From Tetracentron sinense (lineage: Eukaryota; Streptophyta; Magnoliopsida; Trochodendrales; Trochodendraceae): 64,000 bases of DNA. This document shows positions 6,774-43,807 of this stretch, one piece after another (the stretch's first letter is position 1; each line of letters starts with the position of its first letter). Made by a program: the position numbers and the translations under genes. The notes beneath the pieces were generated by a model that ran no database searches, was not told the DNA's origin, and was given only the letters and a program-made list of their open reading frames with translations. The DNA lies in assembly GCA_015143295.1 (NCBI GenBank), contig CM026557.1, positions 29,979,760 through 30,043,759 of the forward strand, read 5' to 3'.

Positions 6774-7066
6774 TGTCGCAACCCAAAATACCCCCTAGGA
6801 GTTAGGGATATTTTGACTCGTGACCGTCGTATCATACCTTCCATATGATACATAAGGCATGCATAGCAACCTGTCAGAGTAAATAGACATACATAGCGGA
6901 AACGATCTAAACATATAGCGGAAGCAAAAATATAAATAAACACTCCTATTCCTTGGTCCAAGTATGAACCAGCAAAAATATACACATGTGTAAATATCCT
7001 AAAGGGTGGAGTGGACAAGTCCTACTCTCACATAACAAAATATCATATCCCTCTAACTGATGGAGT

Positions 7067-7199
7067 CAACAGAAATCAAAGTCATGATGCCTATCTAGCG
7101 GACCATCATCCTAGTAGTGGTCGACAGAAGGCTCCAGATCGTAATACTCTTCCTCTACACAAGGCTCCGTACCACACAAATTGAAAGGAACTCGGGCAC
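7067..7199 (-). pseudogene. Acidic LTR short frame, C 5' LTR
   Basis: Frame begins after the TTGGTAG|GT junction and encodes a PCVEEEYYDLEP variant (Trp changed to Cys), with an in-frame TAG before DDGPLDR and a TGA at 7067-7069. The C-terminal block resembles that of element K (DHYQDDG, LDRR) rather than that of L. Confidence 0.4.
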
Positions 7200-8159
7200 C
7201 TACCAATGATAGCAAATATCGGTTGAGCGTGTAATACTCAGCGTATACATACTACTAACAATAAGGCAATAATAGCATAGAGCATACTAATCATGGAGAA
7301 TAAAATCCTTAAAACATATCAAAGCGTGGAAACTGTGAAATGACACATATGATGAAATCCGAAACCAAAACCGTGTGAGTCATGCGATAATCATAGCCTT
7401 GTGAGTTCTTGGAGTTCATAGAGTTCCTTAGAATTATTTATGATCCATAGAGACATAGAGCAATACCGTAGAGCATAACCATAGAGATCTTAGAGCAATT
7501 CCATTTGTGATCCTTAGAGCTTGTGAACCGATCTTAGACATTATCATAGAGCTTCTTGTGAGTGTATCATGATCCTTAGAGCTTGTGAACCGATCTTAGA
7601 CGATATCATGGAGTTGCTTAAAATCATTTATATAAGTCACTTATTCAAAAACTCTTTTCGTAACTTTGAGAAATCCATGGAAAAACACCGGTTCATGTGA
7701 GACATGCGAACATATGAGAGAATAACACATTTAATCACCAAAAACCTTTAGAGACATTTAACCAAACACATAGAGTGCATAATAATACTAGTTTACATCC
7801 AAGTATAAAAATACCATCATACACCATAACAAAACAAGATTTATAGTATAGAATGAGAAGAATCTCATGTGGTAACTAGTAGTATCACAAGATTGGTAGT
7901 AGAATGTATCTACCTTGGTGAAATCGAGGAATTCGATTCCAAAGGCTTGGAACACGTGAGAACCTTGAGTTCCTTGTTGAAACACCGAAGGAGGGAAGAG
8001 ACTTGATCTTCTCTTTAAGCTTTGAGCAAATCCTAGCTTCCTCCTTCTTATTCCTCTCAAAATAGTGCACTAAGGGTTTTTGAAACCCTAAGGCACAAAA
8101 CAATCCTTTTATAGGCAAAGGAACATTGGTTAAAGACTAATGAAGAAAATCTGTGTATA

Positions 8160-8324
8160 ACCGATCGATCGGTGGCCATGACTGAGCGATTGGTGGCTTG
8201 CCGAGCGATCAGTTGAAAACACCCCCTCTGAAAATTTTATCCATACAAATTAGTTAACCAGTCGACAGCTACCGAGCAATCGGTAGATGACTGGTCGATC
8301 AGTGGTTATCACTGAGCGATCGGT
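8160..8324 (-). promoter_or_regulatory. Palindrome promoter cassette, C 5' LTR
   Basis: Second copy of the C cassette with more decayed palindromes (many CG changed to TG or CA, such as ACTGAGCGATTGGT). CCATACAAA and CCAGTCGACAG of the core remain. It precedes TATAAAA at 8107-8113 in element sense. Confidence 0.55.
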
Positions 8325-8752
8325 GCTCCCCTGTTTTGCTGTAAAACCCTTTTTCTACTACTTCAACCTTCTTCATCCAATTTTAACACCTTTTATGCTT
8401 AACACACACTCCTTTAGGCCATATAGACCTATCAACCCATGTACACCATGTTGCGACCCAAAACCCACCCTAGGAGTTGAGTGAATCTTGGACAACTCAT
8501 CATGACTTGCATGACTTGCTTGACCAAATTTACCTACAAAAGACCTGGAGCACATACAATAGAGGACTATAATAGCGGAAACATAACTACAAAGCACAAT
8601 GGAAGTCTAACCAAAAACCTCTATGTATATATATATATGATCCATGTTTGGTACAAAAAGAAACCAAAAGAAGGTGCGGACAGGCCCGCCAAAAATACAT
8701 CAATCTAATCTCTCAAACTCACACCCACAGACTCACTCAGAATCTACCACCT

Positions 8753-9285: not shown

Positions 9286-10091
9286 GATATGCTAGTTCTT
9301 GTCCTCTTGCCAAAAGCGAGGTAAAACGTATCGTAAGATATGTCCCACCTCTAACATCCTTATTCTTGAAAATCATCGGTAAACCAAGTCATACATGCCG
9401 TGCTCGTGAAATCGTGTACATACTTTCATTTGAAATTAAATATGACATTTGGGGATTTCAACAATACATAGAAGATCACAATTGAGCAAGTCATAATTTA
9501 TTCAATTTAAGGAAAGCGAGGAATCACACTATCGTATGCCCTAGCAATTTCATAAGTATTTAAGCATGCATTTCTTGATTTATCACTCGGTTTCTTCACC
9601 TTGGCATTTCATCAAAAATATGGTGTGTACATTATTTGTTAAAGCCTAAATCATACTTTTCTATGTGTTCACAACACACACGTATGTTTATTATTGGTAC
9701 AATGCCCTTCCCATTTCATTCATCACGATACATACTCTCGGCATCCATCGCCCTTTCATCTCCATACAACATCCATCTCATATTTATATTCATACTTTTA
9801 GGGAAAACAAGAAAGAAGGGAAGAAAAGGAGAGAATATGAACTGGGAGGGTAGCAAAACGTACCAACCTTGAAGAAGCGTGTAGAGCTCCAGACTTTTTC
9901 ATGCTTAATACATGGCACTTTCGTAGCCAATTTTCCTTTAAAGTAGTACAATTAATAAATGAGGAAGAAATTGAAAATTCTGAAACATCAAAAATGTTCC
10001 TTTTCGAAGTACGAACCCAACGCAAGTTGAATCGTCAAAATCTGACGAACGAGTCAAAAGATATGGTCAAAACAGTCCAAACCTGCAAAGC

Positions 10092-10275
10092 ACCGATCGC
10101 TCGGTCCATGGAGCGATCGATCGGTCCAAAACCGATCGATCGGTAGCTATCTACTGGTTGAAGAATTTGTATGGGAAAATTTTCCAGAGAGTTGATTTTT
10201 GGTCGAGAGCTCGGTCAACACACCGATCGCTCGGTAGGCAACCGATCGATCGGTCATAACCACCGATCGCTCGGT
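10092..10275 (+). promoter_or_regulatory. Palindrome promoter cassette, element E
   Basis: ACCGATCGCTCGGT, ACCGATCGATCGGT and related copies on both sides of the GTATGGGAAAATTTTCCAG core. Conserved flanks are GATATGGTCAAAACAGTC on the left and GTTTTTGCAGAAATTTCAG on the right. The same flanks enclose the 26-bp array in L and G. Confidence 0.62.
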
Positions 10276-11321
10276 CTTCGTGTTTTTGCAGAAATTTCAG
10301 TAAGGGTGTTTCGGTCTTTTGGCATTTCACTCTTTATTCTTAAGGGATGCCCGAGCCTTTAGGGCTCATTTACCACACTTAGAGACATTGAGAGTTAGAG
10401 AAAGAGGAGAGAGCGATTTCTAACCTAGGGTTTACTTTTGGGGAGAAATCAAAGGGGTTTTCAAGACCCACAATCACCTCAAGATTGGATTGCTTCAAGA
10501 TTTCGATTCAAGCACGCGAGGAGTAGTTTCTCCAAGCTAGGGCAGTGCCCCACGAACGTTTTTGGAGGAGTTTTCTTCCTCATTGATCAAGGTCGGTACT
10601 TCTTGCTACCCTCCTAGTTATAGTTCCTTCTTTTCCTTTATTTCTCTTTGTTTTCTTTCATTTACACATGTGCTATGAGATCGATGGGTGTGAATGGTGA
10701 ATGGAGACGGAATGGGCGATTGGATGCCGTATGTATGGTTGTGATTAATGCAATGGGAAGGGCATTGTGCAAATAATAAACATACAAGTGTGATGTGAGT
10801 ATAACCCACCTAGAAAAGCATGACCTAGGTTAAGAAAATAATGAACACACCCTATGTTTGATGAAATGCCAAGGTGAATAAAATGAGTGATAAATTAAGG
10901 GAATACATGCTCAATTATTCATGAAATTGTTAGGGCTTATGATAGTGTATGTGTAAATTATTACTTGCTTAAATTGTGATATGCTATGCTTTATGAATTA
11001 CCCAAATTATCATATTTAAATTCAAATGCAAGTATGCACACGATCTCACGAGCATGCATGCATGACATGGGTTACTGACGTTTTTCAAGAATGGGATTTA
11101 GAGGTGGGGTGTAGAGCCCCGGACCTTTTCACATTTAATGCATAACACTTTCATAGCCATTTTGCCTTTAAAGTAGTACAATTAATAAATAAGGAAGAAA
11201 TTGAAAATTCCGAAATGTCAGAAATGTTCCTTTTCGAAGTACGAACCCAACGCAAGTTGAATCGTCAAAATCCGACGAGCGAGTAAAAAGATATGGCCAA
11301 AACAGTCTGGACCTGCAGGCA

Positions 11322-11465
11322 ACCGATCGCTCAGTCCATGGAGCGATCGATCGGTCCAAAACCGATCGCTCAGAGGCTATCGACTGGTCAAGATTTTTGT
11401 ATGGGGAAATTTTCCAGAGAGTGAAATTTTAACCGATCGATCGGTCATTAACACCGATCGCTCGG
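11322..11465 (+). promoter_or_regulatory. Palindrome promoter cassette, element F
   Basis: A shorter cassette: ACCGATCGCTCAGT, a GCGATCGATCGGT half, ACCGATCGCTCAG, then the core CTATCGACTGGTCAAG and TTTTCCAGAGAG, then ACCGATCGATCGGT and ACCGATCGCTCGGT. Compared with E, part of the downstream palindrome group is missing. Confidence 0.6.
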
Positions 11466-12384
11466 TACTCGCGTTTTTGCAGAAATTTCAGTAAGGGTAT
11501 TATGGTCTTTTGGTCGGTTTACTCTTACCTTAAGAGTTTAACCCGAGCCTTTAGGGCTTCATTTCGACACTTAGAGAGATTGGGAGATAAGAAGAGAGGA
11601 GAGGGCGATTCCTAAACCTAGGGTTTCCATTTTGGAGAGAAACCAAGGGGTTTGTGAACCCACACTCAACTCAAGCCCATTTTTCTTCAAGATCAAGGCA
11701 CAAGCTCGTGAGGAGCATCTCCTCAAGCTAGGGCAGCAACTCACGGTCATTTTTGGAAGGGGATTTCTTCCTCACTTGATCAAGGTCGTACTTCTTACTA
11801 CCCTCCTAGTTATAGTTCCTCTTTTCCCTTTATTTCTTTTGATTTTCCTTTATTTACACATGTGCTATGAGATGGATGGTTGTGAATGGTGAATGGAGAT
11901 GGAATGGGCGATTGGATGCCAATGGTTGTGTTGTGATGATTAAAATGGGGAGGGCATTGTATCCATAATAAACACATATTTATGATGTGAGTAAACCCAC
12001 CTAGAAAAGCATGATTTAGGTTTAAATGAATAATGAATAATGAACACACCATGTTTGATGAAATGCCAAGGTGAATAAAGTGAGTTGTAAATTAGGAAAT
12101 GCATGCCTAATAAATCTTGGATATTGCTAGGGCCTATGATAGTGTGTTTTCTTGCTTTCCCTAAATGATGTGAATATTACATTGCTCAACCATTGATGTT
12201 ATATGTGTTGTGAATTACCCAAATGTCATATTTAAATTTAAATGCAAGTATGTACACGATTCCCACGAGCACGGCATGCATGACATGATTTACCGAGGTT
12301 TTCAAGAACATGGTTAGAGGTGGGACATATCCTACGATATGTTTTACCTCGCTTTTCACAAGAAAACAAGAACCAACATTCCAC

Positions 12385-12525
12385 AAGGGGTCTCCCCTCA
12401 CTCACAAGTGCATATCATGAAGAAGAGCCTCCCTTCCCTCGCAAGTACATACATATCATGAAGAAGGGTCTCCCTTCCCTCTCAAGTGCATTGCATAAAG
12501 AAGGATCTCCCTTCCCTCTCAAGCG
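12385..12525 (+). repeat. Hairpin repeats GAAGGGTCTCCCTTC in F
   Basis: Units of AAGAAGGGTCTCCCTTCCCTC alternate with CTCACAAG or CTCTCAAG and CATATCATG spacers. Each GAAGGG/CCCTTC pair can form a small stem. The array lies in the interval between the donor-like and acceptor-like sites. Confidence 0.7.
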
Positions 12526-12893
12526 CATCTCACAAGGATATCTCACAAGTGTATCTCACAAGTTACATGATCACAAGCAAGCACGCATGACATGACATGC
12601 ATGACATGACACGTACGACCACTCGACAAGATCAAGCAAGACAAACACGACAAGCTTTCAAGTACGAAAAGATATTTCAAGCCAAGTCAAGTGCACGAGG
12701 TTTTCAAGAGGTTTTATCGGCTTTCTACGAAATACAAGCATGATCATAAATTGCTTTACTTCCTTGTATGATATGAATTTTTTCCGTCTAACATATATGA
12801 ATTGCTCCTGATTTATGTATTGCCATTTTTATGCTATGACTATTGGTTAGTATTTGGTACCCGCTGAGTATTCCATGCTCAGCCGTACTTCTT

Positions 12894-13020
12894 ATGTCGG
12901 CAGGTTTTGAGGGAGCTGCTGCTCCATTTGATGTTTGTGCTCCTGGTCCATGGGTGAAGAGGAGTACGTCGAGGAGCCTTTGGAGGAACCTCCCGTAGAG
13001 GGTTATTAGTAGGTGGTGTT
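12894..13020 (+). pseudogene. Acidic LTR short ORF, frameshifted copy in F
   Basis: Starts ATG 12894 with MSAGFEG and follows the family to GPWV. One missing base in the GTGGAAGAG run then moves it into a basic frame (KRSTSRS) that ends early. Intact relatives have GTGGAAGAGGAG at this spot. It is the only member of the L-type subgroup seen with a shift. Confidence 0.45.
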
Positions 13021-13374
13021 AGATTCTGAGTGGATTAGCTGTGGGTGAGCATGAGTGATTATATCCATGTATTTTGGCGGGCATGTCCGCACTTTCTTTG
13101 TTTTGATTTTTTTGTATTAAACTTGGACCATGTGTATATACTTAGAGGTTGTTAGACTTCCGCTGTGTTTTATAGTTATGTTTCCGCTGTCATCCTCTAT
13201 TGTATATGCTCTGTGGGTTTTTGCAGGTTGGTTTGTCAAGCAAGTCATGTAAGCCATGATTAGTCGTCCAAAGTTCACTCTAACTCCTAGGGTGGGTTTT
13301 GGGTCGCGACATGGGGCATATCCTACGATATGTTCTACCTCACTTTTCACAGGAAAACAAGAACAAACATTCCA

Positions 13375-13520
13375 CGAGGGGTCTCCCCTCACTCACAAGT
13401 GCATAGCATAAAGAAGGGCCTCCCTTCCCTCGTAAGTACATACATACATATTGTGAAGAAGGGTCTGCCTTCCCTCTCAAGTGCATTGCATAAAGAAGGG
13501 TCTCCCTTCCCTCTCAAGGC
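13375..13520 (+). repeat. Hairpin repeats GAAGGGTCTCCCTTC in E
   Basis: Four units (one as GGGGTCTCCCCTC, one with GGGCCTCCC, one with GGGTCTGCC) separated by CTCACAAG or CTCGTAAG and CATATTGTG spacers. They lie at the same position as the F and L arrays. Confidence 0.68.
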
Positions 13521-13873
13521 ATCTCACAAGCGTATCTCACAAGTGTATCTCACAAGTTACATGATCACAAGCAAGCACGCATGACATGCATGACATGACA
13601 CGACATACAAGAATAATGAAGATAGACAAGACGAGTTTTCAAGCACGAAAATGGTACCTTAAGTCAAGTCAAGCGCACGGTGTTTTCAAGGGTTTTATCG
13701 GCTTTTATGAATGCAAGCATGATTATATACTACTTTACTTTATTGTTATGATATGAATTATTCATGCTTTGCATGTGTGAATTGTTTCCTGTTCTATGTA
13801 TCGCTATCTGCATGCTATGACTGTTGGTTAGTATTTGGTACACGCTGAGTATTCCATGCTCAGCCGTACATTT

Positions 13874-13993
13874 ATGTTGGCAGATTCTGAGGGAGCTGCT
13901 ACTCCATTTGATGTCTATGCTCCGAGCCCTTGGGTGGAGGAGGACTACGTTGAGGAGCCGGTGGAGGAGCCTCAGGGAGAGGGTTATTATTAG
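13874..13993 (+). CDS. Acidic LTR short ORF, element E (39 codons)
   Basis: ATG 13874 starts MLADSEG, continues PFDVYAPSPWVEEDY and ends EGYY with TAG 13991-13993. It stays open although the adjacent acceptor-like junction has changed from AG|GT to AG|AT. If the frame depends on splicing, this copy should be impaired; if it depends on its ATG, it should not be. Confidence 0.42.
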   Translation: MLADSEGAATPFDVYAPSPWVEEDYVEEPVEEPQGEGYY

Positions 13994-14587
13994 GTGGTGG
14001 TAGATTCTGAGTGAATAGCTGTGGGTGAGATGAGAGATATACATTCATGTATTTTGGTGGGTCTGTCCGTACTTTCTTTTGGATTTCTTTTGTGTAAACT
14101 TGGATTTGTATATACATAGAGGTTTGTTTAGACTTCCGCTGTACCATGTTAGAGTATGTTTCCGCTGTTTTTATCCTCCATTGTATATGCTCTGTGGGTT
14201 TTGCAGGTTGGTTTGTCAAGCAAGTCATGATTAGTCGTCCAAAGTTCACTCTAACTCCTAGGGTGGGTTTTGGGTCGCGACAAAGCGAGGAAGATCCTCC
14301 TACACGTGCGTGGAGTTGCTGCCCTAGCTTGAAGAACGTGCTCCTCACGAGTCGAACCTTGGATTTGAAGAATCCAAGCCTTGGAACAATCTTGGGTAAT
14401 CCAAGCTCCTAATTTATTCTCAAAAGGAAAACCTTAGGTTAGAATCCCCTTTCTCCTCTCTCTATCTCTCAGAACACTCTAAGTATGGTGAATGAAGCCC
14501 TAAAGGCTCGGGGCAAGCCTTAATAGGAAAGGGTTTAACGCCCAAAAGATGAAAAAGCCATTACTGAAATTCTACAAAACGCGATAT

Positions 14588-14781
14588 ACCGATCGATCAG
14601 TCGCCTACCGAGCGATCGGTGTTCTTGATCGAACTCTTGGTCAAAAACATGCTCTCTGGAAAAATTCCTCATACAAAAAAGTTAACCAGTCGATAGCTAC
14701 CGATCGATCGGTTGTGGACCGATCGATTGCTAATTTGGACCGAGCGATTGGTTGTGAACCGATCGATCCCTAGCGATCGGT
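14588..14781 (-). promoter_or_regulatory. Palindrome promoter cassette, element D
   Basis: ACCGATCGATCAGT, ACCGAGCGATCGGT, ACCGATCGATCGGT and weaker copies around CTCTGGAAAAATTC and CCAGTCGATAG. It sits in the part of D to the right of E, that is, toward the U3 end in element sense. Confidence 0.58.
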
Positions 14782-16779: not shown

Positions 16780-17991
16780 TGAAATTTATCCAGATCAATG
16801 ATCTCTAAGACCTAGAGGGGGGGTGAATAGGTCTATCTAATAATTTCTAACCAATTTTAATTTTTCAATTAATATGTTTAGAAATCAATGAACAAGTCAA
16901 TTAGACAATTCACACAAATCAAACACAGAAGATTTTTACGTGGAAAACCCTAACGGGAAAAAACCACGGGACCTTGTCCAGCAATAAACTTCACTATGAA
17001 AAGATATCAAGTACAAGACAAGACCTTACCAATACAGAAACGACGTTCCTAGGTATAGACTCTTACTCTTGATTTCCACGAACCAGCAGGTTCGATCTCC
17101 GCCGTAGCAGCTTCGGTTCCACACCGACCAAATCTTTTCAAGCTACTTCAAAACCACGATCACACACGATCGATCTCCTTCCACGAAGGCTCCGGATCAA
17201 ACACCGGACACACACACACAAGGTGTAGGGTTGTGAATCAATTTAGGAAATTTCAAACCCTAGAGGGATCTCATACAGATCTGAGATCACACAATGCAAG
17301 ATCAAAGGTTTAGATCTATACTTGCATTCTCTAGGATCAAAGAAAGAGGAGGGATCAACAAAGATCTAATAAAATCAATAAGAAAAACCTTAAAAGAGTT
17401 TCTCAGACCTCTACTCTTTCAAAAATATCAAAGACACGAATTAGGTCTCCAAAAATTTGTTTATATAGGGTTTTAAAAAAAGAATCCAGAAAAAGAAAAA
17501 TTCTTTTTACGGGGACCGATCGATCGGTGCTCACTACTGATCGCTCGGTCCAAATGACCGATCGCTCGGTTATAAATCAATTCTCTGGAAAAATACCCCA
17601 TACAAACTTTTTGTCCAGTCGATAGCCACCAATCACTCGGTAGGACACCGATCGATCGGTCCCAGTACCGAGCGATCGGTTGAGACAGAATTTTAGCCAA
17701 AACAATTTTCTTTTATTTTTGATTGATTCAAACAAGACCAAAAGACTTTGGTAGGCTTAAAACTATCCTCCTAAGTATGTTTAGATTTATCTAAGTCAAA
17801 TTCAACCTAGGTAAGGGTCTCTAAGTCCATTACCTGTCTAGATCCAGAGTAGGAGCTTTTTCTTTTCTTTCTTCAATCTTCTTTAATCTTTAGCTCTTCT
17901 CTTCTGACAAGTTGAACATGACTCGACGACTCGACTCACATGACCTATCTAATGATCACGGAATTTGCCAACACCTATTTAGGGATTTACA
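16780..17991 (-). repeat. 3' LTR of element H
   Basis: 1212 bp from TGAAATTTATCC to AGGGATTTACA. In element sense it starts TGTAAATCCC, then has the palindrome cassette (17515-17680), TATATAA (17461-17467) and a leader with CT-rich and AC-repeat stretches (CACACACACA near 17210). Confidence 0.95.
17461..17680 (-). promoter_or_regulatory. Palindrome cassette and TATA box, H 3' LTR
   Basis: ACCGATCGATCGGT at 17515-17528 and several ACCGATCGCTCGGT-type copies flank the core with CCCCATACAAAC and CCAGTCGATAG (17615-17625). The core, the palindromes and their order match the Ty3 cassettes in J and I. TATATAA follows in element sense. Homology to Ty3 ends outside the cassette. Confidence 0.72.
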
Positions 17992-18003
17992 ATCTCCCCC
18001 TTT
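17992..18003 (-). other. Polypurine tract of element H
   Basis: ATCTCCCCCTTT on the plus strand, so AAAGGGGGAGAT on the element strand, immediately next to the 3' LTR. Confidence 0.88.
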
Positions 18004-18602
18004 GGCAATTCCGGGACAAAACAAGACTAACTCATATACTAGGTTCAAATTTTTCCAATTGATTCAAAAATGAAAAATTGACCTTTACATGACTCAAAAA
18101 TATAATTACAGGACTTTTGACATGTTAGCTTGTCATGATTCACCAAACTTAGAACCTGTTTGCCTGCACATGCTAAATCAAAAACCTGTGAAGCATGAGA
18201 AATAAAATATGGGATAAAATATTGGAAGAATGAAAATATGTATAACATAACATCCAAAATTCCACAATACTATATCCATAACAGGTTAAGCATTCCATAA
18301 CATCATCCAAAACATTTATAACCTCATCCAACACATTAACACATCAATTTAAAACATCAATCATAACATCATAACTCTCCCCCTTTTTGGCTCGAAATGC
18401 CAAAGGTGGACTAGAAAATTAATGCATAACCATCCAAATGAGATGAGATAGAAGATAATGAGCATAAACCATTCAAATGTATACATCCATAACAAGTCAA
18501 TAATATCCAAGTAGGTTTGTACTAAGTACAACCAAGACAAAATACATCAAAATGTCAAACAAAAAATATCACTCGACTAAGATAAACTCCAATCACGAAC
18601 TA
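18004..18602 (-). other. H region between ORF3 and 3' LTR
   Basis: AT-rich, about 600 bp, no coding frame. It includes a second CTCCCCCTTTTTGG tract near 18377 that could act as an additional purine primer on the element strand. Short repeats of CATAACATC are seen around 18240-18375. Confidence 0.5.
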
Positions 18603-19893
18603 TCACTCCTGCTCATCATCAGAAGTGAGCTGGGACTCATAGTAAGCTCGAAAATCTCGAACATCTCTCTGTACGCCCAGCACCGCTGCATCGAGAGATC
18701 CAAGTCTACCACGAACCTCTGTAGTAAACTCCTCGTATGATGAAACATGAGTCCGGAGATCCATCTGCATCTCTCGCATCATCCTCCCAAGATCATCCAT
18801 AGTGGTCGGAGGAGGACGAGATGACCCAGCACCAACTTCTGCTCCCTCTTCTGTATCTCGAACTGAGGCATGTGAAAAACTCTGAGCTAGGGTCTTTTTG
18901 TTGATTGGACCCTTAGGAACTCGAGTAGGAACACCAGGAGGAGCGATAACTCCTTGAGACCCAAGAAGTTTAGTGATGAGTGAACCAAATGGTAGGGCTC
19001 CAACTGCTGTACTAGTTTGATGGGCTTGGATCATCAAGTCAATGATGTGAGCGGCAAGATCAATATCACGCCCACGTAGAAGACTAAACAGAAATCTAGC
19101 TCTATCTTCCCTAAGGTCCGCAGTATGAACCTTTGGATGGATATTTGCACTCATAACTAGGTTTACTAGTCTAGCATCCTTAGTGAGTTTCGCCACTTCA
19201 ATAAGAGACCCAACCCAAAACGTAGGAGTACCACTAAGAAAGGTAACAACAAGTTCCATGGAGTCTTTATCCTCATCAGTCTTATAAATATAAGGATAAT
19301 ATGCATTTGGAACTCGAGGACAGCCAAGGAATTTAGAAATCAAATCAGCATTTATGACAACAGATTGTTCTAATGCTCGAGATTTGAATGACCATTTTTT
19401 CTGGTTGATTTCAGAAAAAATTAGAGTAAAATTCTCTAACTAACTGGACAGAAGCAGGACGGGATAAGGTAAGTATACCTTCCCATTGACGATCTGTAAT
19501 GAGTGTAGGAAGATAATAATCACCAAAATCAGAAATATGTATGTCCCTTTCAACCATAACACCTTTCTTGCTAAAATACTCACTATAGAGTTGAGCAGCA
19601 GTAGGACTTATAAACTGGGATAACTTACTGGACTGGGAAGATGAAGCTTTACCTTTATTTTTCCGAGTTTTATCAGCCAAAGATTTTTGACGATTCTCAA
19701 TTGTAGAATCTATCATTCTACGAATTGGCCTGTCCCCAATGGAAATACCATGCCCTATTGGAGTGAAAGTAAAAGGCTCTAGGTTTTCCTCATCTTGAGG
19801 AGGGTCCTCTTGGTTGTTGAGGACCAACCTCCGACGTTTGGGAACGCCAGACATGAGATAGGCAAGAAGGATTAACGAAAAAACGAAAGCCAT
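18603..19893 (-). pseudogene. Element H ORF3 (envelope-position gene), frameshifted
   Basis: Two abutting frames. The first (19893-19411) begins with a hydrophobic stretch then PKRRRLV, and ends LVREFYSNF. The second (19343-18603) contains ISKFLGCP, LLRGRDIDLAAHII, a Pro-rich linker and a likely coiled coil (MREMQMDL to DFRAYYESQL). LVREFY followed by a FLGCP-type motif resembles the putative plant transposon protein domain of third ORFs in SIRE- and Ogre-type elements. One extra T in a T run near 19428 causes the break. The function is unproven; I see no convincing fusion peptide. Confidence 0.75.
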
Positions 19894-21315
19894 GGAAGAA
19901 AACGCAAGAAAAACGATGCCCTAGATGAGAAAATCAATCTAAATCCAAGAAAATGCACAAATCTTACCTTTTAGATGCTTGGGAAACCTTTAGAATAGAA
20001 TGGAATGACCGTAGGAAAGATTTGGAGGAGAGGTAACCGAGAGATCACTCTGGAGATCGGAGAACAAGTGAACAAAAAAAAATAGAAATGAGGGTTTTAT
20101 AACTCTGTTCACGAAAGACCGATCGATCGGTCTTTAGCACCGAGCGATCGGTGGTCTGAAAAATTTTCAAAAATTTTACAATTTTAAACTTTTCTCCCCC
20201 TCAACCTATGGTTTGGTTTAAACTCATTGTTTACCTCAAAATGACCAATTGACCAAAAAATATGCAACAATTGATTTCATTAAAATCATAAATAATAATC
20301 ACCCAAGAATTGATATATCAAGAATAGTCATAAACAAGGATTATGTAAACATTAATTGATTTTCACCGGTGATTAAATATGGTATTTGCATCAAATTCAC
20401 AATCAGAATCAAGAAACAATTAGAAGTAATGTGAGTATGAAATCAAAATTCATTACTTGACTCTTTGAATTGGTTTCCTTCCTTAATCTAGATTTTGACA
20501 TTATAATTCAAATGGGACTCTAAAATTTTCAAAAACTAGTTTTAAAACCAATAATCATCCATATTTATATGATGAGCAATTTTTACCCCAAATTTGACTA
20601 AACATATTTATTTCATTTCTTTTTCAGTCAAATTGTACTCATTGTGAAAATTCTTTTTGGAGTACACATATATAGTTTTTAGCACATTGGTGACTTTCAC
20701 TCAAGTGAGAAGGTAGCTCTTTCTAATGACAGTAGGGGCTTTCACACTAGCTACTGTTTGTCTAGGTAGCCATTACTCACTGTTTGCATTCACTAGTAGC
20801 TATCACACAAACTCACAGGTAGTCCTCTCCATGTCAATAATTTTTATAACTAGGGGGCTCACCTTATGGAATTTTTTATGACATTGGTTATACTAGTTTT
20901 GATTAATCTAGGGAACCATATGGTATAATATCAGAACCTTTAATTAGGAACTAATACCATCTAAAGAATCAGTCAGAGTGCATGTGCAAAATAGAACATC
21001 TTTGTATGCTCAACTCTAACTGAGATTAGTTAGCCTGACCAAATTCAATCACAAGATCGAACCAACAATTGAACTATCCTATATTACTCAATCCTATGAA
21101 ATATTTACCCTTGGATTATATGTTTAAATATGATTTCAAGGAAATAACATTAAGCAAAATGATTGGAAAGAAGGTCATACTAACACATTATTTTTTGCAA
21201 TATTTTTCAATTTTTTGAATGTTTTTGGATTTTTATTACTTAAAGAAAATAAAAAAATAGCTCTATGACATAAATAGAACATGAAGAACACATAGGCTAT
21301 GAAACAAGTACATCT
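19894..21315 (-). other. H spacer between RNase H and ORF3
   Basis: About 1.4 kb, AT-rich, no coding frame in element sense. It holds the internal palindrome/TATA module at 20095-20152 and tandem variants of GGTAGCTCTTTC / AGTAGCTATCACAC near 20700-20830. Confidence 0.6.
20095..20152 (-). promoter_or_regulatory. Candidate internal promoter of H ORF3
   Basis: In element sense ACCGATCGCTCGGT (complement of 20139-20152), ACCGATCGATCGGT (20118-20131), then 16 bp and TATAAAA (20095-20101). ORF3 begins about 200 bp downstream. It repeats the palindrome-then-TATA order of the H LTR, without the central core. Promoter activity is inferred. Confidence 0.55.
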
Positions 21316-21572
21316 TTACTCAACTCCGCACAAACCTATGGATTTCCTAAGGAGTTCAAACCTAAGGGAATCTAAGGGTTTTGTTAGAATGTCCGCAAAT
21401 TGATTCTCTGTTTGGACATACTCTATAGACACAATCTTTTGCTCAACAAGATCACGGATGAAGTGATGTCTTATGTCTATGTGTTTTGTGCGAGAATGTT
21501 GAACGGGATTTTTGGAAATATTGATAGCACTAGAATTATCACAATATACAGTCATAGTGCTCTGTTCAATCC
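21316..21572 (-). pseudogene. Element H RNase H tail
   Basis: Encodes VYCDNSSAI, KHIDIRHHFIRDLV, ENQFADILTKPL and stops at 21316. It is the last part of Ty1 RNase H, shifted one frame from the main pol frame by a one-base loss after MLND. Confidence 0.9.
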
Positions 21573-24161
21573 CTAATCATTCAACATCTGTTTCATCCAC
21601 AGAAGTTGAGTGCAACAACTGCCAGCTGCTATGTACTCAGCTTCTGCAGTGGACAACGAAATTGAATTCTGCTTTTTGCTAAGCCAAGCAACTAAGCAGT
21701 TTCCAATATAGAAACATCCTCTAGAGGTGCTTTTCCTATCATCAGCATTTCGGGCCCAATCGGCATCGGAATATCCAACTATCATGGCATTTATATCAAA
21801 AGAATACAAGAGGCCAAATGATAGAGTTCCACTCACATATTGAATGATACGCTTAACTGCAAGCAAGTGAGACTCTTTTGGGCTCGCTTGATAGCGGGCA
21901 CATGCACCAACACTAAAGGCTATGTCAGGTCTAGTAGCAGTTAGGTAGAGTAAACTACCAATCATGCTTCTATAAGAAGTTTGATCAACATCTTTGCCTG
22001 TAGCATCTTTACTAAGTTTTGTAGTAGAACTCATAGGAGTTCTTACATGCTTAGCAGAGCTCATGCCAAATTTCTTCACTAGATTTTTAGCATATTTGAT
22101 TTGAGATACTGAGATCTCAGAATCCAATTGCTTGATCTGAAGACCAAGGAAGAAACTTAGCTCACCAACCATGCTCATTTCAAATTCATTTTTCATTTGT
22201 TCAGCAAATGAACGAGCATGTAAGTCTAATGTGGAACCAAACACTATGTCATCAACATATATCTGGGCGATGACAATATCACCTTTCACATTCTTTATGA
22301 AAAGAGTTCTGTCTACTCCCCCTCTCGAAAATCCGTTTTCCAAGAGATAAGTAGTCAGCCTCTCATACCAAGCTCTTGGAGCTTGCTTTAAACCATAGAG
22401 GGCCCTTTTTAGCCGATATACTTGATCAAGGTGATGTGGATCTTCAAACCCTTTTGGTTGTTCCACATAGACTTCCTCATGTAGAATGCCATTCAGAAAG
22501 GCACTCTTAACATCCATTTGAAAAAGTTTGAATTTCATATGGCAAGCCACAGCTAGAAGAATTCTTATTGATTCTACCCTGGCTACAGGAGCAAACGTTT
22601 CATCGAAGTCAATACCTTCAATTTGGGCGTATCCTTGTGCAACTAACCTAGCCTTATTTCTTATGATAATACCTTTTTCATCAGATTTGTTCTTGAAAAT
22701 CCATTTGGTACCTATCACATTTGTATTGTTAGGCCTAGGTACTAAATACCAAACATCATTCCTAGTAAACTGAAGTAACTCTTCTTGCATTGCATTTATC
22801 CAATTATCATCTGCAAGAGCTTCAGTTACATTCTTGGGTTCAAAAGATGAAGTATAGCAAATGTAGCTAACTTCATTTTCAATTTGTTTCCTCGTTCTCA
22901 CTCCACTTTCAACATCACCAATTATATCAGTGGGGGTGTGAGGACTCATGACCCTAGAATGTGTAGGTTTTGATGGAGATGATTGCTTATTTATAGGTGG
23001 AGTTGAAACAGTTTCAACATTTTCATTTACAGCACTTTCATCATCCTCAAGTTGCACAGTTTCTACACCGGAGTCATCCACAACTACATTTATGGACTCC
23101 ATAATTGTAGAGGTTCTCAAGTTATACACTCGATAAGCTCTACTGTTGGTGAAATATCCAAGAAATATCCCTTCATCACTCCGGGATTCAAATTTGCCCA
23201 GTTGCTCTCTATCCTTAAGGATATAGCATTTACTTCCGAATTCTCGAAAGTACTTGACACTAGGTTTCTTGTTATTCCACAACTCATATGGGGTTTTCCT
23301 TGTTCCAGGTCTTACAAAAACTCTATTAACTATATAGCAAGCAGTGTTAACTGCCTCAGCCCAGAAATGAGAAGCTAGATTGTTGCTATGAAGCATAACT
23401 CTAGCCATCTCTTGGAGAACCCTGTTCTTCCTCTCTACTACACCATTCTGCTGAGGTGTAATAGGTGCAGAAAATTCATGTTTGATACCCGACTCATCAC
23501 AAAAGTCGTTGTACTTAGAGTTTTCAAACTCCTTTCCATGATCACTTCGAATTCGAGTGATTGGGCATCTTTTCTCATTTTGAATTTTCAGGCAAATACT
23601 TTTGAAATTGTCAAAAGCATCGGATTTCTCCCTTATAAATGCCACCCATGACATTCTTGAGAAATCATCAACCATGACTAGGATGTATCGCTTTCCACCT
23701 AGACTTTCAGTTCTTGTAGGACCCATAAGATTCATATGAATTAATTCCAGTGGATATGAAGTAGCAATACTTGAAGTCTTCTTATGTGGGGTTCTAATTT
23801 GTTTACCAATTTGGCATGGCCCACACACAGCAGTAGAAGGCTTTCCTAGTTTGGGAACACCTCTCACAAGCTCTTGCTTAGAGATTTTGCATAGGTCTTT
23901 GAAGTTCATGTGACCTAGTCTTCGGTGCCATAAATCAACTTCCTCAATTTTAGTCTTATAACAGACATTTGAGGGATTAGAACTGGGAGTTAAGCCGTAG
24001 CAATTGTCAGTGGTTCTCAATCCTTCTAGAACACACTTACCTTTACCATTAATGACTAAGCATTTATTTTGGGTAAAGTGTACAGCATGGTTATCATCAC
24101 ATAGTTGACTTATGCTAATTAAATTAGCTTTCAGTCCTTCAACAAACAAGGCATCTTTCAA
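21573..24161 (-). pseudogene. Element H integrase, reverse transcriptase and RNase H
   Basis: An uninterrupted 862-codon frame. Integrase zinc finger HRRLGH...CGPCQIGK; catalytic core with [15 protein letters not shown] and QNGVVERKN (D, D, E). RT has [11 protein letters not shown] and the catalytic YVDDIVFGS. RNase H has YSDADWA, DRKSTS and STAEAEYIA. The frame is in phase with the upstream 24162-25330 block, split from it by one TAA just before LKDALFVEG. It would reverse transcribe and integrate element RNA; this copy cannot make the full polyprotein unless the stop is read through. Confidence 0.94.
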
Positions 24162-25333
24162 TTAAGGTATGCCTGGTGAATCGATGATACCCTTTCCTTT
24201 GACTAAAGACTTGCTTCCATCACCAAAAGTAACAGTCCCATCTGGACAGTCCTCAAATTGAATAAATAAGGACTTGTTACCTGTCATATGCCGAGAACAC
24301 CCACTGTCGAAGTACCACATTTCTGTGTTTTGGGCTTTCAAGGCAGTATGAATGACAAAGCACTTAAGGTCATCCTTTCTTACATACACAGTCTTTAAAC
24401 TTTGTTTAGATCTTTGATCATTAATCTGTGTAGTAGAGACCTTTTTCCTTTTTGTCCTCCTTGACCTTTTTCTGTTTTGTTCAGTTCTAGCTTTTTGATA
24501 AGTCAAATTGTTTCCTCTTGAATAATCATTTGGAATAAATTGACCAGTTCTTGTCCTAGAGATTTGAGCAATTCTATTAACATCATCGCTCAACATTCTA
24601 GACTTTTCAGCTAGAACCTGAATCTGCCTTTGAAGAGTCCCTTGACTTTGATTTTGGTTCCATGAACCATTTCGGGGAGCTCTCCTAAAAGCATTACAAT
24701 TAGGTCGAATGTGACCTCTCACACCACAAAAGTGACATGTGGGTATGAATCTTGGAAGATGAGGATTTCTTCTAACAGGAATTTGATTCCTCACAGCATT
24801 CACTCTAGGAGCTGTATTTCTAGGCTTTACAAAATTTGTATAAGCCTTAGTACTTGATGTAGAAGGTAAATTTTCTTTAGGATCAGAATGTATTGGCTCA
24901 AACACTGCACTAGCCATTGTACCAACAGCTAAAGGACCAACTGGTGTGTCAGCATGTCCTATCCCAGATCTACTCGAATTTGATCCATACTTTCTAACTA
25001 ATTCATCTAGGCAGCTAGTGTTACCAAACATTCTTACTTCTTTTTCAAGAGTATAGACCTTCTGAATCAAGTCAGTCTTGTCTTTAAGGGTAATTTGATG
25101 CTCTTTTTCAAGAAATTTCACCTTATCAACAAGAGAGTCTTTAAAAGTTTCCAGCTCCATTTGCAGAGTTCTTAACTCTTCAATTTCTTTCATGGAAGTG
25201 TCTCTTTCAAATTCTAATTTTTTGACCACATTAGTCAATGAGACATTCTCTTCCAAAAGACATTGGACTTTTATAACAAATGCTTCTTTTTCATTTTCCA
25301 ACTGACTAACTAGAGCACTCTTCTCTTCTGCTA
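24162..25333 (-). pseudogene. Element H gag C-terminus and protease
   Basis: Coiled-coil-rich segment (heptad-like EEN, VKKLEFERD, VDKVKFLEKEH), then a second zinc knuckle CHFCGVRGHIRPNC, a basic RKRSRRTKRKK block, and the aspartic protease site YFDSGCSRHM. It lies one frame away from the N-terminal gag, the shift being in an A-run at about 25381-25390. It ends at TAA 24162-24164. Confidence 0.88.
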
Positions 25334-26617
25334 CTAGTTTACAAATATCTCTTTCATTTTGAGTTTTTTGCTCAAGGAGATTTTTTTTTTAGTCAGCTTC
25401 AAACTTTCAGCATACAACTTATCATAAGTTGTTTTCAAATCTTCATCACTTTCAGAGTCAGTTTGACTCTTCTGTATGTCATCACTAGACTCAATATGAA
25501 CACTCTCATCACTTCTATCCTTTTCATCAACCGCAGAGGTAGTCTCAAGAATCCCAGAAAGGGAAACAGTGAAAGCCGTATGATTTCCAGTATCTTCACT
25601 TGAAGAGGAACTGTCCGATTCTTCATTTTCGGAATCACTGTCATCCCAACAGGCATTCATCACCTTGCCCTTACTCTTCTTCTTGTTAGGACAGTTAGGT
25701 GAAATATGACCGAAGCCATGGCATTCATAACATTGAACACCTTGGGATTTCTTGTCGCCACTCTTGGAATTTTTCTTGTTTTCCCAGGGCTTAGACTTTG
25801 ACTTCTCAAAAGATTTTCCTCCCTGTTTTGGATTAAACCTCTTTTTCGTTCTAAATTTTTTTTGAAATTTCTTAACGAAGAGAGCCATTTGTTCCTCATT
25901 CATATCTCCATCACTGTCATCCTCATCCAAAGTTTCCTTGATGGATTTCAAGGCTAAAGATTTGTTCTTCTTGGATGGACGGAGATTGAGTTCATAGGTT
26001 TGGAGTGAACCAACCAATTCCTCAATCTTCAGAGAGTCAACATTTTTACTCTCTTCGATTGCAGTGACTTTGGGTTGAAATCTCTCTGGGAGAGATCTAA
26101 GGACTTTTCTAACTATTTTGGACTCAGATATTTTCTCACCTAAATTGAAACTAGCGTTGACAATGTCACTAAGTTTTGCATAGAATTCATCAAAAGTGTC
26201 ATTGTCTTCCATGTTTAAATGTTCAAATTTGGTGGTTAACATTTGGAGTTTTGAGATTTTAACAGTGGTAGTACCCTCATGGGTAATTTCAAGAATGTCC
26301 CAAGCCTCCTTCGCTGTTTCACATGAAGAAATTCGTCTGAATTCCTCAGCAGTGACTGTAGTAAAGATAGCATTGAGACCTTTAGTATTCCATCCACTTG
26401 ACTCAAGCTCTTCTCTGGTCCATTCATCAGAATATTTGACCACAGTCAAATCTCCTACAATTTTTATGGGTGTAGTCCACCCATTCTGTATAGACATCCA
26501 AATTCTCTCGTCAATAGATTTGAGAAAGGCTCTCATTCTAGCTTTCCAATAAGCATAATTATTCCCATCAAAAAGTGGGAGACGAGAGACGGATCCTCCT
26601 TCTCTTAGAGTACTCAT
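25334..26617 (-). pseudogene. Element H gag N-terminal part
   Basis: ATG 26617 (MSTLREGG) is preferred to the GTG two codons upstream. The Ty1 gag fold is recognisable: FDGNNYAYWKARM, AKEAWDILEITHEG, KLQMLTTKFEHL, LRSLPERFQPKV. A CCHC zinc knuckle follows (CYECHGFGHISPNC) and a Ser/Asp-rich acidic tail. The frame runs out at 25334 after the A-run frameshift. Confidence 0.92.
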
Positions 26618-26670
26618 GATCACGGATAATACAGGATCACACTTAAGGGATTAGCCTTATCAGTGAACTT

Positions 26671-26682
26671 GCTCTGATACCA
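26671..26682 (-). other. Primer binding site of element H
   Basis: GCTCTGATACCA on the plus strand is the exact complement of TGGTATCAGAGC, matching the 3' end of initiator tRNA-Met. Two bases separate it from the 5' LTR. Confidence 0.93.
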
Positions 26683-26684
26683 AT

Positions 26685-27915
26685 TGAAATTTATCCAGAT
26701 CAATGATCTCTAAGACCTAGAGGGGGGGTGAATAGGTCTATCTAATAATTTCTAACCAATTTTAATTTTTCAATTAATATGTTTAGAAATCAATGAACAA
26801 GTCAATCAGACAATTCACACAAATCAAACACAGAAGATTTTTACGTGGAAAACCCTAACGAGAAAAAACCACGGGACCTTGTCCAGCAATAAACTTCACT
26901 ATGAAAAGATATCAAGTACAAGACAAGACCTTACCAATACAGAAACGGCGTTCCTAGGTATAGACTCTTACTCTTGATTTCCACGAACCAGCAGGTTCGA
27001 TCTCCGCCGTAGCAGCTTCGGTTCCACACCAACCAAATCTTTTCAAGCTACTTCAAAACCACGATCACACACGATCGATCTCCTTCCACGAAGGCTCCGG
27101 ATCAAACACCGGACACACACACACAAGGTGTAGGGTTGTGAATCAATTTAGAAAATTTCAAACCCTAGAGGGATCTCATACAGATCTGAGATCACACAAT
27201 GCAAGATCAAAGGTTTAGATCTATACTTGCATTCTCTAGGATCAAAGAAAGAGGAGGGATCAACAAAGATCTAATAAAATCAATAAGAAAAACCCTAAAA
27301 GAGTTTCTCAGACCTCTACTCTTTCAAAAATATCAAAGACACGAATTAGGTCTCCAAAAAGTTGTTTATATAGGGTTTTAAAAAAAGAATCCAGAAAAAG
27401 AAAAATTCTTTTTACGGGGACCGATCGATCGGTGCTCACTACCGATCGCTCGGTCCAAAACGGATCGCTCGGTCCAAATGACCGATCGCTCGGTTATAAA
27501 TCATCTCTCTGGAAAAATACCGCATACAAACTTTTTGTCCAGTCGATAGCCACCGATCGCTCGGTAGGCCACCGATCGATTGGTCCCAATACCGAGCGAT
27601 CGGTTGAGACAGAATTTTAGCCAAAACAATTTTCTTTAATTTTTGATTGATTCAAACAAGACCAAAAGACTTTGGTAGGCTTAAAACTATCCTCCTAAGT
27701 ATGTTTAGATTTATCTAAGTCAAATTCAACCTAGGTAGGGGTCTCTAAGTCCATTACCTGTCTAGATCCAGAGTAGGAGCTTTTTCTTCTCTTTCTTCAA
27801 TCTTCTTTAATCTTTAGCTCTTCTCTTCTGACAAGTTGAACATGACTCGATGACTCGAGTCACATGACCTATCTAATGATCACGGAATTTGCCAACACCT
27901 ATTTAGGGATTTACA
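26685..27915 (-). repeat. 5' LTR of element H
   Basis: 1231 bp, nearly identical to 16780-17991. The chief difference is an extra 19-bp palindrome-containing unit near 27455-27475, plus scattered single-base changes. TATATAA at 27366-27372. Confidence 0.95.
27366..27604 (-). promoter_or_regulatory. Palindrome cassette and TATA box, H 5' LTR
   Basis: One more palindrome than in the 3' LTR copy (an added CGGATCGCTCGGT unit). Core CCAGTCGATAG at 27539-27549. The cassette and TATATAA have the same spacing as in the 3' LTR, which argues that unit number can vary while the promoter layout stays fixed. Confidence 0.72.
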
Positions 27916-28089
27916 GTAGCTAATTGGCCGTTTTTGTAGTCTAATTAATAAATAAGGAAGAAATTGGAAATTCCAAAACATCAAAAATGTTCCTTTTCGA
28001 AGTACGAACTCAACGCAAGTTGAATCGTCAAAATCGGACGAACGAGTCAAAAGATATGGCCAAAACAGTTTGGACCTGTAGGTAATCGA

Positions 28090-28477
28090 TCGCTCGGTTA
28101 TGCACTTGAGGACGAGCTCTGGAGAGGCACCGGGCATATGCACTTGAGGATGAGCTCTGGAGAGGCACTAAGGACGTAGCTCGGAAGGCACTAAGGACGT
28201 AGCTCGGAAGGCACTAAGGACGTAGCTCTGATAACGTGCTCTGACAACGTGCTCTGATAAGGCATAGACAACGTATAGACAACGTACTCTGATAACGTAG
28301 CTCTAGCTTTGATAACGTATACGTTGTGCATCCGTTGTGCAACAGACAACGGGTACGTCGTGCAGCAGACAACGTGTATGTTGTACAGCAAACAACATGT
28401 ACGTTGTACAGCTCACGACGGGCACGTTGTACATAAGACAACGGACAACGAGCTCAGCACTATGCACAACACAACGT
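28090..28477 (+). repeat. ACAACG/CGTTGT mosaic in G
   Basis: Irregular repeats: GGACGTAGCTCGGAAGGCACTAA units, then GATAACGT and GACAACGT, then many alternating ACAACG and CGTTGT words that can pair (ACGTATACGTTGT, CAACGTGTATGTTGTACA). It begins immediately after a residual ATCGATCGCTCGGT at 28086, where other LTRs have the palindrome cassette. Related mosaics lie at 51230-51528 and 61240-61532. Confidence 0.75.
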
Positions 28478-28651
28478 GACAACGTGTTCGGCACTATTCA
28501 CAGCACAACGTGTTCGGCACTATTCACAGCACAACGTGTTCGGCACTATTCACAGCACAACGTGTTCGGCACTATTCACAGCACAACGTGTTCGGCACTA
28601 TTCACAGCACAACGTGTTTGGCACTATTCACAGCTCAACGTGTTCGGCACT
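28478..28651 (+). repeat. 26-bp tandem array in G (6 copies plus partial)
   Basis: Unit contains ACAACGTGTTCGGCACTATT followed by CACAGC. Six full copies and one truncated. ACGTG cores recur every 26 bp. The array ends at the conserved GTGTTTTTGCAGAAATTTCAG-like flank that also bounds the palindrome cassette of E and F. Confidence 0.9.
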
Positions 28652-29044
28652 CGTGTTTTTGCAGAAATTTCAGTAAGGGTATTATGGTCTTTTGGTCGGT
28701 TCACTCTTACCTTAAGAGTTTAACCCGAGCCTTTAGGGCTCATTCTCAATACTTAGAGGATTTGGGGGACTAGAAGAGAGGAGAAAGGGTTTCCTAAACT
28801 AGGGTTTTGCTTTTGGAGAAGAATCAAAGGGGTTTTGAGACCCTAGATCACTTCAAGTCCGGTTTTTCTCCAAGATCACGGCTCAAGCACTCGTGGAGAG
28901 CGTTCTCCAAGCTAGGGCAGCAACCCAAGCATGTTTTTGAAAGGGGTTTCTTCCCCAACTCAAGTCTCCTTCAAGCAAAGGTGTTCTTCTTTCAAGTTGG
29001 AGCTTCAATCAAGGTTTCTACCAAGGATCAAGCATTGATCTAAG

Positions 29045-35821: not shown

Positions 35822-36005
35822 ACCGAGCGATCGGTGTTAATGACCGATCGATCGGTTGCCTACCGATCGATCAGTTTCATAACCGAGTGATCGGTTAAAA
35901 TTTCACTCTCTGGAAAATTTCCCCATACAAAAATCTTGACCAGTCGATAGCCTCCGAGCGATCGGTTTTGGACCGATCGATCGCTCCATGGACCGAGCGA
36001 TCGGT
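35822..36005 (-). promoter_or_regulatory. Palindrome promoter cassette, element J
   Basis: Best preserved Ty3 cassette: ACCGAGCGATCGGT, ACCGATCGATCGGT, ACCGATCGATCAGT, ACCGAGTGATCGGT, the core CTCTGGAAAATTTCCCCATA and CCAGTCGATAG (35940-35950), then three more palindromes. It was used as the reference for comparison with element H. No clear TATA box was seen next to it. Confidence 0.65.
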
Positions 36006-37429
36006 TGCCTGCAGGTCCAGACTGTTTTGGCCATATCTTTTGACTCGCTCGTCGGATTTTGACGATTCAACTTGCGTTGGGTTCGTACTTCGAAAAGGAA
36101 CATTTCTGACATTTCGAAATTTCTAATTTCTTCCTTATTTATTAATTATACCTCTTTAAAGGCAAAATGGCAACGAAAGTGTCATGCATTAAATGTGAAA
36201 AGGTCCGGGGCTCTACACCAACAATAATAATATACCTGCACTTAGTCAGAAACATATCCAATAACATAATAACATAATCAGAGTGCGGAAGAACGTGTGC
36301 GTATATACATCATATCATCACCTTGACTCGTGTACTTGTGAGAATCTTAGACTTAGAAAACCATACACTTATGAGGTACTTATGCTTACAAGACCACGTG
36401 CTTGTGAGATGCTTATGCTTATGCTTATGCACTTATTCAGATCATACAAGGATGAGACATGCCTTTCTTGGCGGATACGGACCATGCCTTAGAAATCATG
36501 TGGTTGACATGCCGTTCTTGGCGGATACGGACCATGTCATGCTTATGCTTATTCAGAATGCCATACATATGTCATGCTCATGCTTGTGGCCCACATGTGT
36601 GACTTGTGAGATTCTTATCTTAACATACACGTGCTTGTGTGCTTAAGTGTCGAAATTAACATTCGAGTTGGTAATTGCTTAGATTCCGATCTCCCACCAA
36701 GGAAACTCCACTATATGTCCCATACCAAATAGTTAGAGAATTCCCGGTCTGAGAGATTTTCCTCTAAGTTCTTACCTTCCCGACTACCAATTTCCATGCA
36801 AGTAATTAGATATACTTACCAAACAATCACATATATATCTTATCATAATCCTTAACACGATTCATAATCAATTTGCCACCATTTCATAAGAGTATAATCG
36901 CATTTATCCTTTCAAGCATTTTCACAAACACCTTGTGTACGCATAATATGAATCCATTTCTCCTCTATATTTTCAAGCATTCATCAAACCATAATTCATC
37001 CATACAATCAATTCACTATTCACATCCACATATTAATCCCATCCTCCATACATTTCCCATCCTCCATATATTTCCCATCCACATCCAATCCACATTTCCA
37101 TCCACATTTCCATTAATAATTAGCTTACTTCATAGAAAATTAGGGAAAATGCATCAAACATCTATTTCTACCATTCCTAGCATCTTAACATTCACAAAAC
37201 CTTAAAATAAAGTTGATTAGGATAGTATATCGACCTTAGGAATCCTTCCCTTGGATTCAAAACACTCCCGAGACGATCTGGAGAAGCTTCCCAAACTTTT
37301 CTTGCAATCTCCTATCAATCTCCTCCTTCTCCAAGAAAACCCTCTCTCAAAACCCTAGGGTTTCTCCCCCTTTTTGCCAAATTAGGTTAGAACTAGGTGG
37401 AGTATTTTAATATTTCAAGTAGGACCCCC

Positions 37430-37689
37430 TATTTATAGCCTCAAGGTTTGAGAACAAAAAGACCAAAAAGCCCATACTAAAATTCTGTAAAAATGCTCGA
37501 AGGACCGAGCGATCGGTGGTTATGACCGAGCGATCGGTTGCCTACCGATCGATCGGTGTTTATGACCGGGCGATAGGTCAAAAACACACTCTCTGGAAAA
37601 TTTCCCCATACAAAATTTTGGACCAGTCGATAGATACCGATCGATCGGTTTTGGACCGATCGATCGCTGGTTCTGACCGAGCGATCGGT
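37430..37689 (-). promoter_or_regulatory. Palindrome cassette and TATA box, element I
   Basis: ACCGAGCGATCGGT twice, ACCGATCGATCGGT, a decayed copy, the core CTCTGGAAAATTTCCCCATA and CCAGTCGATAG (37623-37633), then ACCGATCGATCGGT and others. TATAAATA at 37430-37437 lies about 67 bp beyond the last palindrome in element sense. Confidence 0.68.
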
Positions 37690-38188
37690 TCCTGCAGGTT
37701 TTGACTCCCTTTACTGTTTTGGCCATAACTTTTTACTCGTTTATCGGATTTTGACGATTCAACTTGCGTTAGATTCGTCTAACGAAAATGAACATTTTTA
37801 GCATTTTAGAATTTCTAATTTTCACTTAATTTAATAGACTAAATTGTCCCCAAAGTTGACTGATCTGCAATTCCATTAGATAAAACCCACCATTGACTTG
37901 GCTTAAACTCAAAATAAGGAAAAACATTAAACATGAACTTCGAAGAGGGTTCCAACACCTTTCTAATGGTTCAAGAATCACTCAATTCCCGTGAACGGTG
38001 CCAAAACTAGAGCTTCCTAAAGTTTAGGATGTGCTATGACATCCATCCGTTACAAGTTGATTAAGCCTAGTTTACACCACAATAATTAGGCATAAAAAAA
38101 ACAATAAACATCAAACATCACAAGGACTAAAATACCCTTAACACAATGAAATAAAAACATGAAAAAGATTCGGGGTCTCTACAGACTT

Positions 38189-43500: not shown

Positions 43501-43807
43501 TGTCACGCCCCAAAATACCCCATAGGAGTTAGGGATACATTAGTTCGTGACCGCCGTGTCAAGCCATCCGGTATGACACATAAGGCATACTTAACATCCT
43601 GTTAGAGCGCACAAGTTATACATATAACTAAAACAAAGCGGAAGCAATTCAAAATAATATACTTCTATCATTAGGTTCAAGTTTGAACCATAGAACACTG
43701 TAACTTTAAGTATGAAGTGGACAAGTCCCACCCTCAATACTCTCAATATATAATCTAAAGTGGACATTTCCCACTTTCAAAATACAAGACCTTCTCCTTC
43801 ACTTCCC

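Follow-up and report, generated by a model that had tools for sequence, protein, structure and literature searches.

Retrotransposons of the window

The window analyzed here is a 64,000-nucleotide (64-kb) stretch of the Tetracentron sinense genome (GenBank assembly GCA_015143295.1, contig CM026557.1, forward-strand positions 29,979,760 to 30,043,759), and coordinates are given as positions within it. It contains a Sirevirus-like Ty1 retrotransposon, element H (16780-27915, minus strand), with long terminal repeats (LTRs) at 16780-17991 and 26685-27915 and the target site duplication (TSD) GCTAC, together with LTRs of Ty3 elements. The U3 part (the unique 3' region) of both H LTRs carries a block of CpG-rich palindromic boxes around a core, and the same arrangement is found in seven Ty3 LTRs. 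A reading made from the sequence alone (the sequence-only reading) had proposed that this block was exchanged between the two superfamilies. The LTR letters used below are those of the present analysis; J and I are as in the sequence-only reading, where C to F may differ.

The placement of H in Ty1 agrees with both its gene order and its reverse transcriptase (RT) family. Its Pfam domains run Retrotran_gag_2, then gag_pre-integrs, rve, SH3 and RVT_2, with integrase before RT, and its two LTRs are 96.75% identical when the gap from a missing box is counted. Homologs of H pol showed 49-66% identity among the 120 listed of 6433 scored, and the named ones were plants, mostly eudicots. Between pol and the 3' LTR lies an env-like open reading frame (ORF) of 278 amino acids (18603-19439) with the Pfam domain Transposase_32, which we take to be a mark of Sirevirus env-like ORFs; the homolog search with this ORF scored none. 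The octamer AGGGGGAG stands exactly 10 bp ahead of the 3' LTR, as in Sireviruses, and two further copies occur in the linker at 18376 and 20193; the mean reported for Sireviruses is four (PMC2829016). The 5' LTR junction reads ATTGG followed by TATCAGAGC, in keeping with the Sirevirus junction of CA/ATTGG and then TATCAGAGC. A run of seven C, recognized by eye near the LTR 3' end and a candidate for the C-rich integrase signal of Sireviruses, lies farther from that end than the average in the same report. Judged from its sequence by these published criteria, H is Sirevirus-like.

Of the Ty3 elements, that bounded by LTRs A and B (8-1483 and 7024-8449, 91% identical) is a chromovirus, with RVT_1 and a Chromo domain after integrase (26.4 bits against a cut-off of 25.1).

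A palindrome array and core common to Ty1 and Ty3 LTRs

The block of the 3' (right) H LTR (17515-17681, minus strand) consists of three boxes, a 57-bp core and three boxes, and a TATA box (TATATA, 17462-17467, minus strand) follows 47 bases past the last box; the interval 17461-17680 comprises this TATA box and the block. The block of the 5' (left) LTR (27420-27605, minus strand; 186 bp) has three boxes, the core and four boxes. In BLAST comparisons within the window, the right H LTR gave seven matches in Ty3 LTRs, with identities of 68-77%. J was matched best, at 76% identity over 169 bp (E = 1.6e-28), and the other matches were to I (75%, E = 1.0e-24), 11320-11467 (minus, 77%), 10092-10255 (minus, 75%), 14588-14757 (72%), 1273-1358 (74%, E = 5.6e-9) and, as the weakest, 8160-8324 (68%, E = 2e-8).

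BLAST, core shuffles and a box map place the cassette in both H LTRs, in J (35822-36006) and in I (37504-37690), both of these on the minus strand. Block comparisons and the box map place it in A (1173-1359), in B (8160-8325, one box fewer) and in the LTR fragment E (14588-14774) on the minus strand, and in C (10091-10276) and a shortened copy in D (11321-11467) on the plus strand. As a side observation, one Ty3 LTR (about 11109-13311) seems to lie nested inside another LTR of its family (9879-11108 and 13312-14282). Over the whole block, the two H copies are 66-77% identical to the seven Ty3 copies, which are 71-95% identical among themselves. Thus, the homology of the H block to several Ty3 LTRs is borne out by significant local matches that include the core. 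The block has the same sense and the same place before TATA wherever a TATA box can be recognized, namely in H, I, A and B; TATAAA lies 66 bases past the cassette in I and 57 bases past it in A.

The boxes are CpG-rich 14-bp palindromes whose starts lie 19-21 bp apart, or about two helix turns. With up to two mismatches, ACCGATCGATCGGT occurs 55 times in the window against 0.09 expected, and CTATCGACTGG occurs 9 times with up to one mismatch against 0.72 expected; all boxes of the window lie within LTRs or ahead of the env-like ORF of H. A full copy reads, in sense orientation, three boxes, core and four boxes. Box starts are spaced by 20-21, 19, 71, 20-21, 19 and 21 bases in the left H LTR, J, I, A and C, and the 71-base step across the core is kept in 9 of 9 window copies. 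The right H LTR and B have one box fewer and D two fewer, and E has an extra box upstream and lacks one downstream. The palindromes on either side of a common core therefore have a fixed order, with nearly the same spacings, in H, J, I, A and C. The CpG observed/expected ratio in six LTRs was 1.2-1.8 in the block and 0.53-0.68 in the remainder; the block retains CpG relative to the rest of the LTR.

The core was also compared alone, with the boxes excluded, against 1000 dinucleotide shuffles per pair. It exceeded the shuffles in 5 of 5 pairs, and the match is not restricted to the palindromes. The score and the largest shuffled score were 62 and 34 for H-J, 64 and 26 for H-I, 56 and 27 for H-E, and 51 and 27 for H-C. 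Over 53 bp, the H core is 75-81% identical to those of C, D, E, I and J and 66% identical to those of A and B, and the A core is 72-77% identical to those of C, D, E, I and J. These values bear on convergence, in which the same host factor would have driven palindrome arrays in both superfamilies. Sireviruses have evolved several versions of palindromic CpG boxes (PMC2829016), and the L-type Ty3 LTRs described below bear another palindrome; however, the core without palindromes scores well beyond the shuffles for J, I, E and C and the box spacing is the same, and we regard convergence as very unlikely.

Outside the block, H was compared with the Ty3 LTRs using 500 simple shuffles that preserve base content only. 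Downstream, the similarity of H to J, I, A, D and E did not exceed chance, and 40 of 500 shuffles reached its score against C. Upstream, the scores against J, A and D were at or near chance (reached by 59, 211 and 62 of 500 shuffles, respectively), and those against C and E were reached by 28 and 9. The edges of the block are discrete at the outer boxes, as they would be if each LTR had received it as a small mobile insertion in its own right. No direct repeat of the kind that such an insertion would leave as its own TSD was seen at the edges on inspection by eye, the window copies keep the same sense and promoter place, and in Ty3 LTR K (below) the cassette is replaced rather than merely absent. 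An independent insertion is accordingly highly improbable next to exchange of the block between Ty1 and Ty3.

Occurrence in the genome and relationships among blocks

In the 1.16-Gb assembly (1479 contigs, the window lying on contig C7), the 11-base core motif CCAGTCGATAG occurred 5356 + 5382 = 10,738 times, and its reversed control 93 + 74 = 167 times. From 100 listed occurrences, all on contig C1, 54 distinct sites were inspected (L001-L008, L015-L048 and L049-L060; L009-L014 duplicate six of the first eight). The block was present at 50 of the 54, each time with 5 to 8 boxes, and the four sites lacking the array (L022, L024, L027 and L038) were taken as chance occurrences. Flanks of H type were found at five block sites (L019, L032, L043, L045 and L054) and flanks of Ty3 type at the other 45, the Ty3 label being assigned by LTR flanks. 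L019 matched H pol at 93% and the env-like ORF at 81%. Four places had Ty3 pol (L004/L012, L005, L007/L014 and L040), all proteins being searched in L001-L028 only. No second Ty1 family with the block was found among the 54 sites on contig C1. In the viral contigs scanned, the core pattern had no matches, and H and K pol gave 2 and 3 stretches, respectively, none of them confirmed.

The same survey bears on a third source, such as a host promoter, a satellite or another element, from which both lineages would have captured the same sequence. No donor has been identified for the cassette, and the other two Ty3 modules described below are likewise without a known source. Against this, all 50 block-bearing sites have known LTR-type flanks, none of them showing the block outside such a setting, and the boxes of the window are confined to LTRs and the region before the env-like ORF. 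Capture from a third source is thus improbable, if less so than convergence or independent insertion, and direct exchange between the Ty1 and Ty3 lineages is preferred.

A tree was built from 47 blocks, 9 from the window and 38 from other loci, with the 12 short loci L049-L060 left out. The six H-type blocks formed one clade against all Ty3 blocks with support of 100/100, the bootstrap being rough and unsettled, and under a midpoint root H lay outside all Ty3. Since the H-type blocks form one clade, one old transfer is the simplest account, rather than frequent exchange. Within Ty3, no clear case of disagreement between block and RT was found among the five RT segments compared.

Replacement of U3 modules within Ty3

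In Ty3 LTR K, the place of the cassette is taken by an unrelated U3 module (51222-51779, plus strand; about 560 bp) that contains 26-bp tandem repeats and ACGT-rich repeats, and only the first box of the cassette is left (51208-51221). On both sides of these differing modules, LTRs D and K are closely alike, with 94% identity downstream. Between K and L014, which carries a J-type cassette in the 3' LTR, RT is 95% identical. The Ty3-type LTR L (47951-50376), which has the same upstream flank as the D/K-type LTRs, carries a third kind of U3 module, characterized by TTCGTCGACGAA-type palindromes (49710-49790, minus strand). Thus, the control part of U3 is replaced as a unit within Ty3, and such replacement lends plausibility to a transfer in either direction between Ty3 and Ty1.

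Among the sites on contig C1, five of Ty3 type (L006, L031, L044, L049 and L055) have the cassette and a related downstream part, together with a different upstream U3 part common to them; this upstream difference is a further swap within Ty3. LTR L pairs with a Ty3-type LTR at 43501-46000, the two being 92% identical and both carrying the TTCGTCGACGAA module. The K LTRs (50996-53634 and 61000-63612) are about 2.6 kb long and 98% identical, and the K element has the Ty3 order of protease, RT, RNase H and then integrase. No chromodomain was listed in the K open frame scanned; K presumably belongs to Tekay/Del. A K-like LTR also lies at 27939-28957, and H is inserted near its start. This host nest was considered as the source of the cassette and rejected, the surrounding K-type Ty3 LTR being without the block. 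ARAGORN found no tRNA gene.

Boxes upstream of the env-like gene of H

The box search located two further boxes, 21 bp apart and without a core, upstream of the env-like ORF of H (20118-20152, minus strand). TATAAA lies 16 bases past them (region 20096-20152), and the relative at L019 retains one such box and the TATA. The box pair with TATAAA is a putative internal promoter.

Origin of the common cassette

Exchange is the best explanation of these data because H and the Ty3 LTRs agree in box order, spacing and core and differ in their flanks, and because H is a clear Ty1 element. On these grounds the exchange proposed by the sequence-only reading stands, with capture of one sequence by both lineages as its rival. 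We conclude that the cassette probably passed between a Sirevirus-like Ty1 lineage and a Ty3 lineage in one old transfer, to which we assign a probability of roughly three in four.

Several observations weigh against this conclusion. The upstream similarity of H to I is weak, yet none of 500 shuffles reached its score; the tract may extend slightly further upstream, or composition may have an effect. The earlier claim that LTR sequence outside the block is unrelated holds downstream and, upstream, is essentially borne out apart from I (0/500) and E (9/500). The core-alone score of H-A, at 32 against a largest shuffle of 27, is marginal. The position of H is unstable across trees: H fell weakly inside the group fam1, among C, D and J, in one smaller set and adjoined A/B with support of 93/80 in another, and grouping H with A/B was not rejected by the approximately unbiased (AU) test (p-AU 0.135 in the first of these smaller sets and 0.44 in the 47-block tree). 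The inspected sites come from one contig and are not a random sample, and neither a donor copy nor an intermediate was found.

The block would be a self-contained upstream promoter cassette, a rigid palindrome array around the 57-bp core upstream of TATA. It may have moved by template switching between co-packaged RNAs, or nested copies may have recombined or undergone conversion; the repeated palindromes would supply the short homology. Host factors would bind boxes and core, and H and the Ty3 families would then obey one signal. If the block evolves evenly, the transfer would be about as old as the split between A/B and J within Ty3 (block identity is 76% for H-J and 75% for A-J). The boxes ahead of the env-like gene favor the Sirevirus as first holder, and the greater block diversity in Ty3 favors Ty3. 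Exchange between superfamilies is well supported; its route and the regulatory function of the cassette we infer.

Comparisons of LTR promoters usually stay within families. A cassette homologous between Ty1 and Ty3 means that control regions can have their own history and that unrelated elements may switch on together. These findings suggest that retrotransposons of different superfamilies can swap control switches, and the core motif, with its thousands of genomic occurrences, is a countable marker for promoter movement between superfamilies. More tentatively, and with rather more doubt than confidence, U3 modules could form a shared pool that crosses superfamilies and is swapped independently of coding parts, with about ten thousand LTRs of the two superfamilies under one host signal.

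Comparison with known systems

Among the matches listed in the open-licence literature, as far as the available text goes, there was no report of a cassette common to Ty1 and Ty3, and none of the matches to the box and core strings concerned retrotransposons by title or abstract. In wheat, the three Gypsy families Wilma, WHAM and Sabrina have a GC-rich motif and TATA in common (PMC9744471). In the available part of that report, all are Gypsy and are thought to be autonomous and non-autonomous partners, whereas the present case joins Ty1 and Ty3. As here, the modular U3 control region of the Tnt1 superfamily diversifies separately from the coding parts (PMC1838419); the Tnt1 case, as far as that source is available, is confined to one Ty1 group, with nothing in common with Ty3. 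Onsen and Triticeae elements (PMC5668417, PMC1950507) offer recombination or template switching as a route to LTR chimeras, but the exchange in the available parts of these reports is within one family or between similar elements. Del LTRs (PMC4029996) resemble the present Ty3 LTRs in their CpG-rich, variable 5' part. They differ in that the eudicot Del group is described there as without a CpG island, and the string 'palindrom' is absent from the available text.

The closest likeness is to the repeated motifs (RMs) of Sireviruses. Bousios and colleagues (PMC2829016) reported CpG-rich palindromes ahead of both TATA and env in 13 Sireviruses, with a CGG-CCG signature in 12 of 13 RMs, and H likewise has palindromic boxes upstream of TATA and of its env-like ORF. 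The sequence-only reading, whose interpretation is partly supported, overlooked this precedent. The triplets of the H boxes are arranged CCG...CGG, however, whereas those of the RMs are CGG...CCG, and the RMs were held to be Sirevirus-specific among the Ty1 elements compared, whereas here the array and core are also in Ty3 LTRs. Thus, boxes in H are expected in kind, and the array and core common with Ty3 are the new part.
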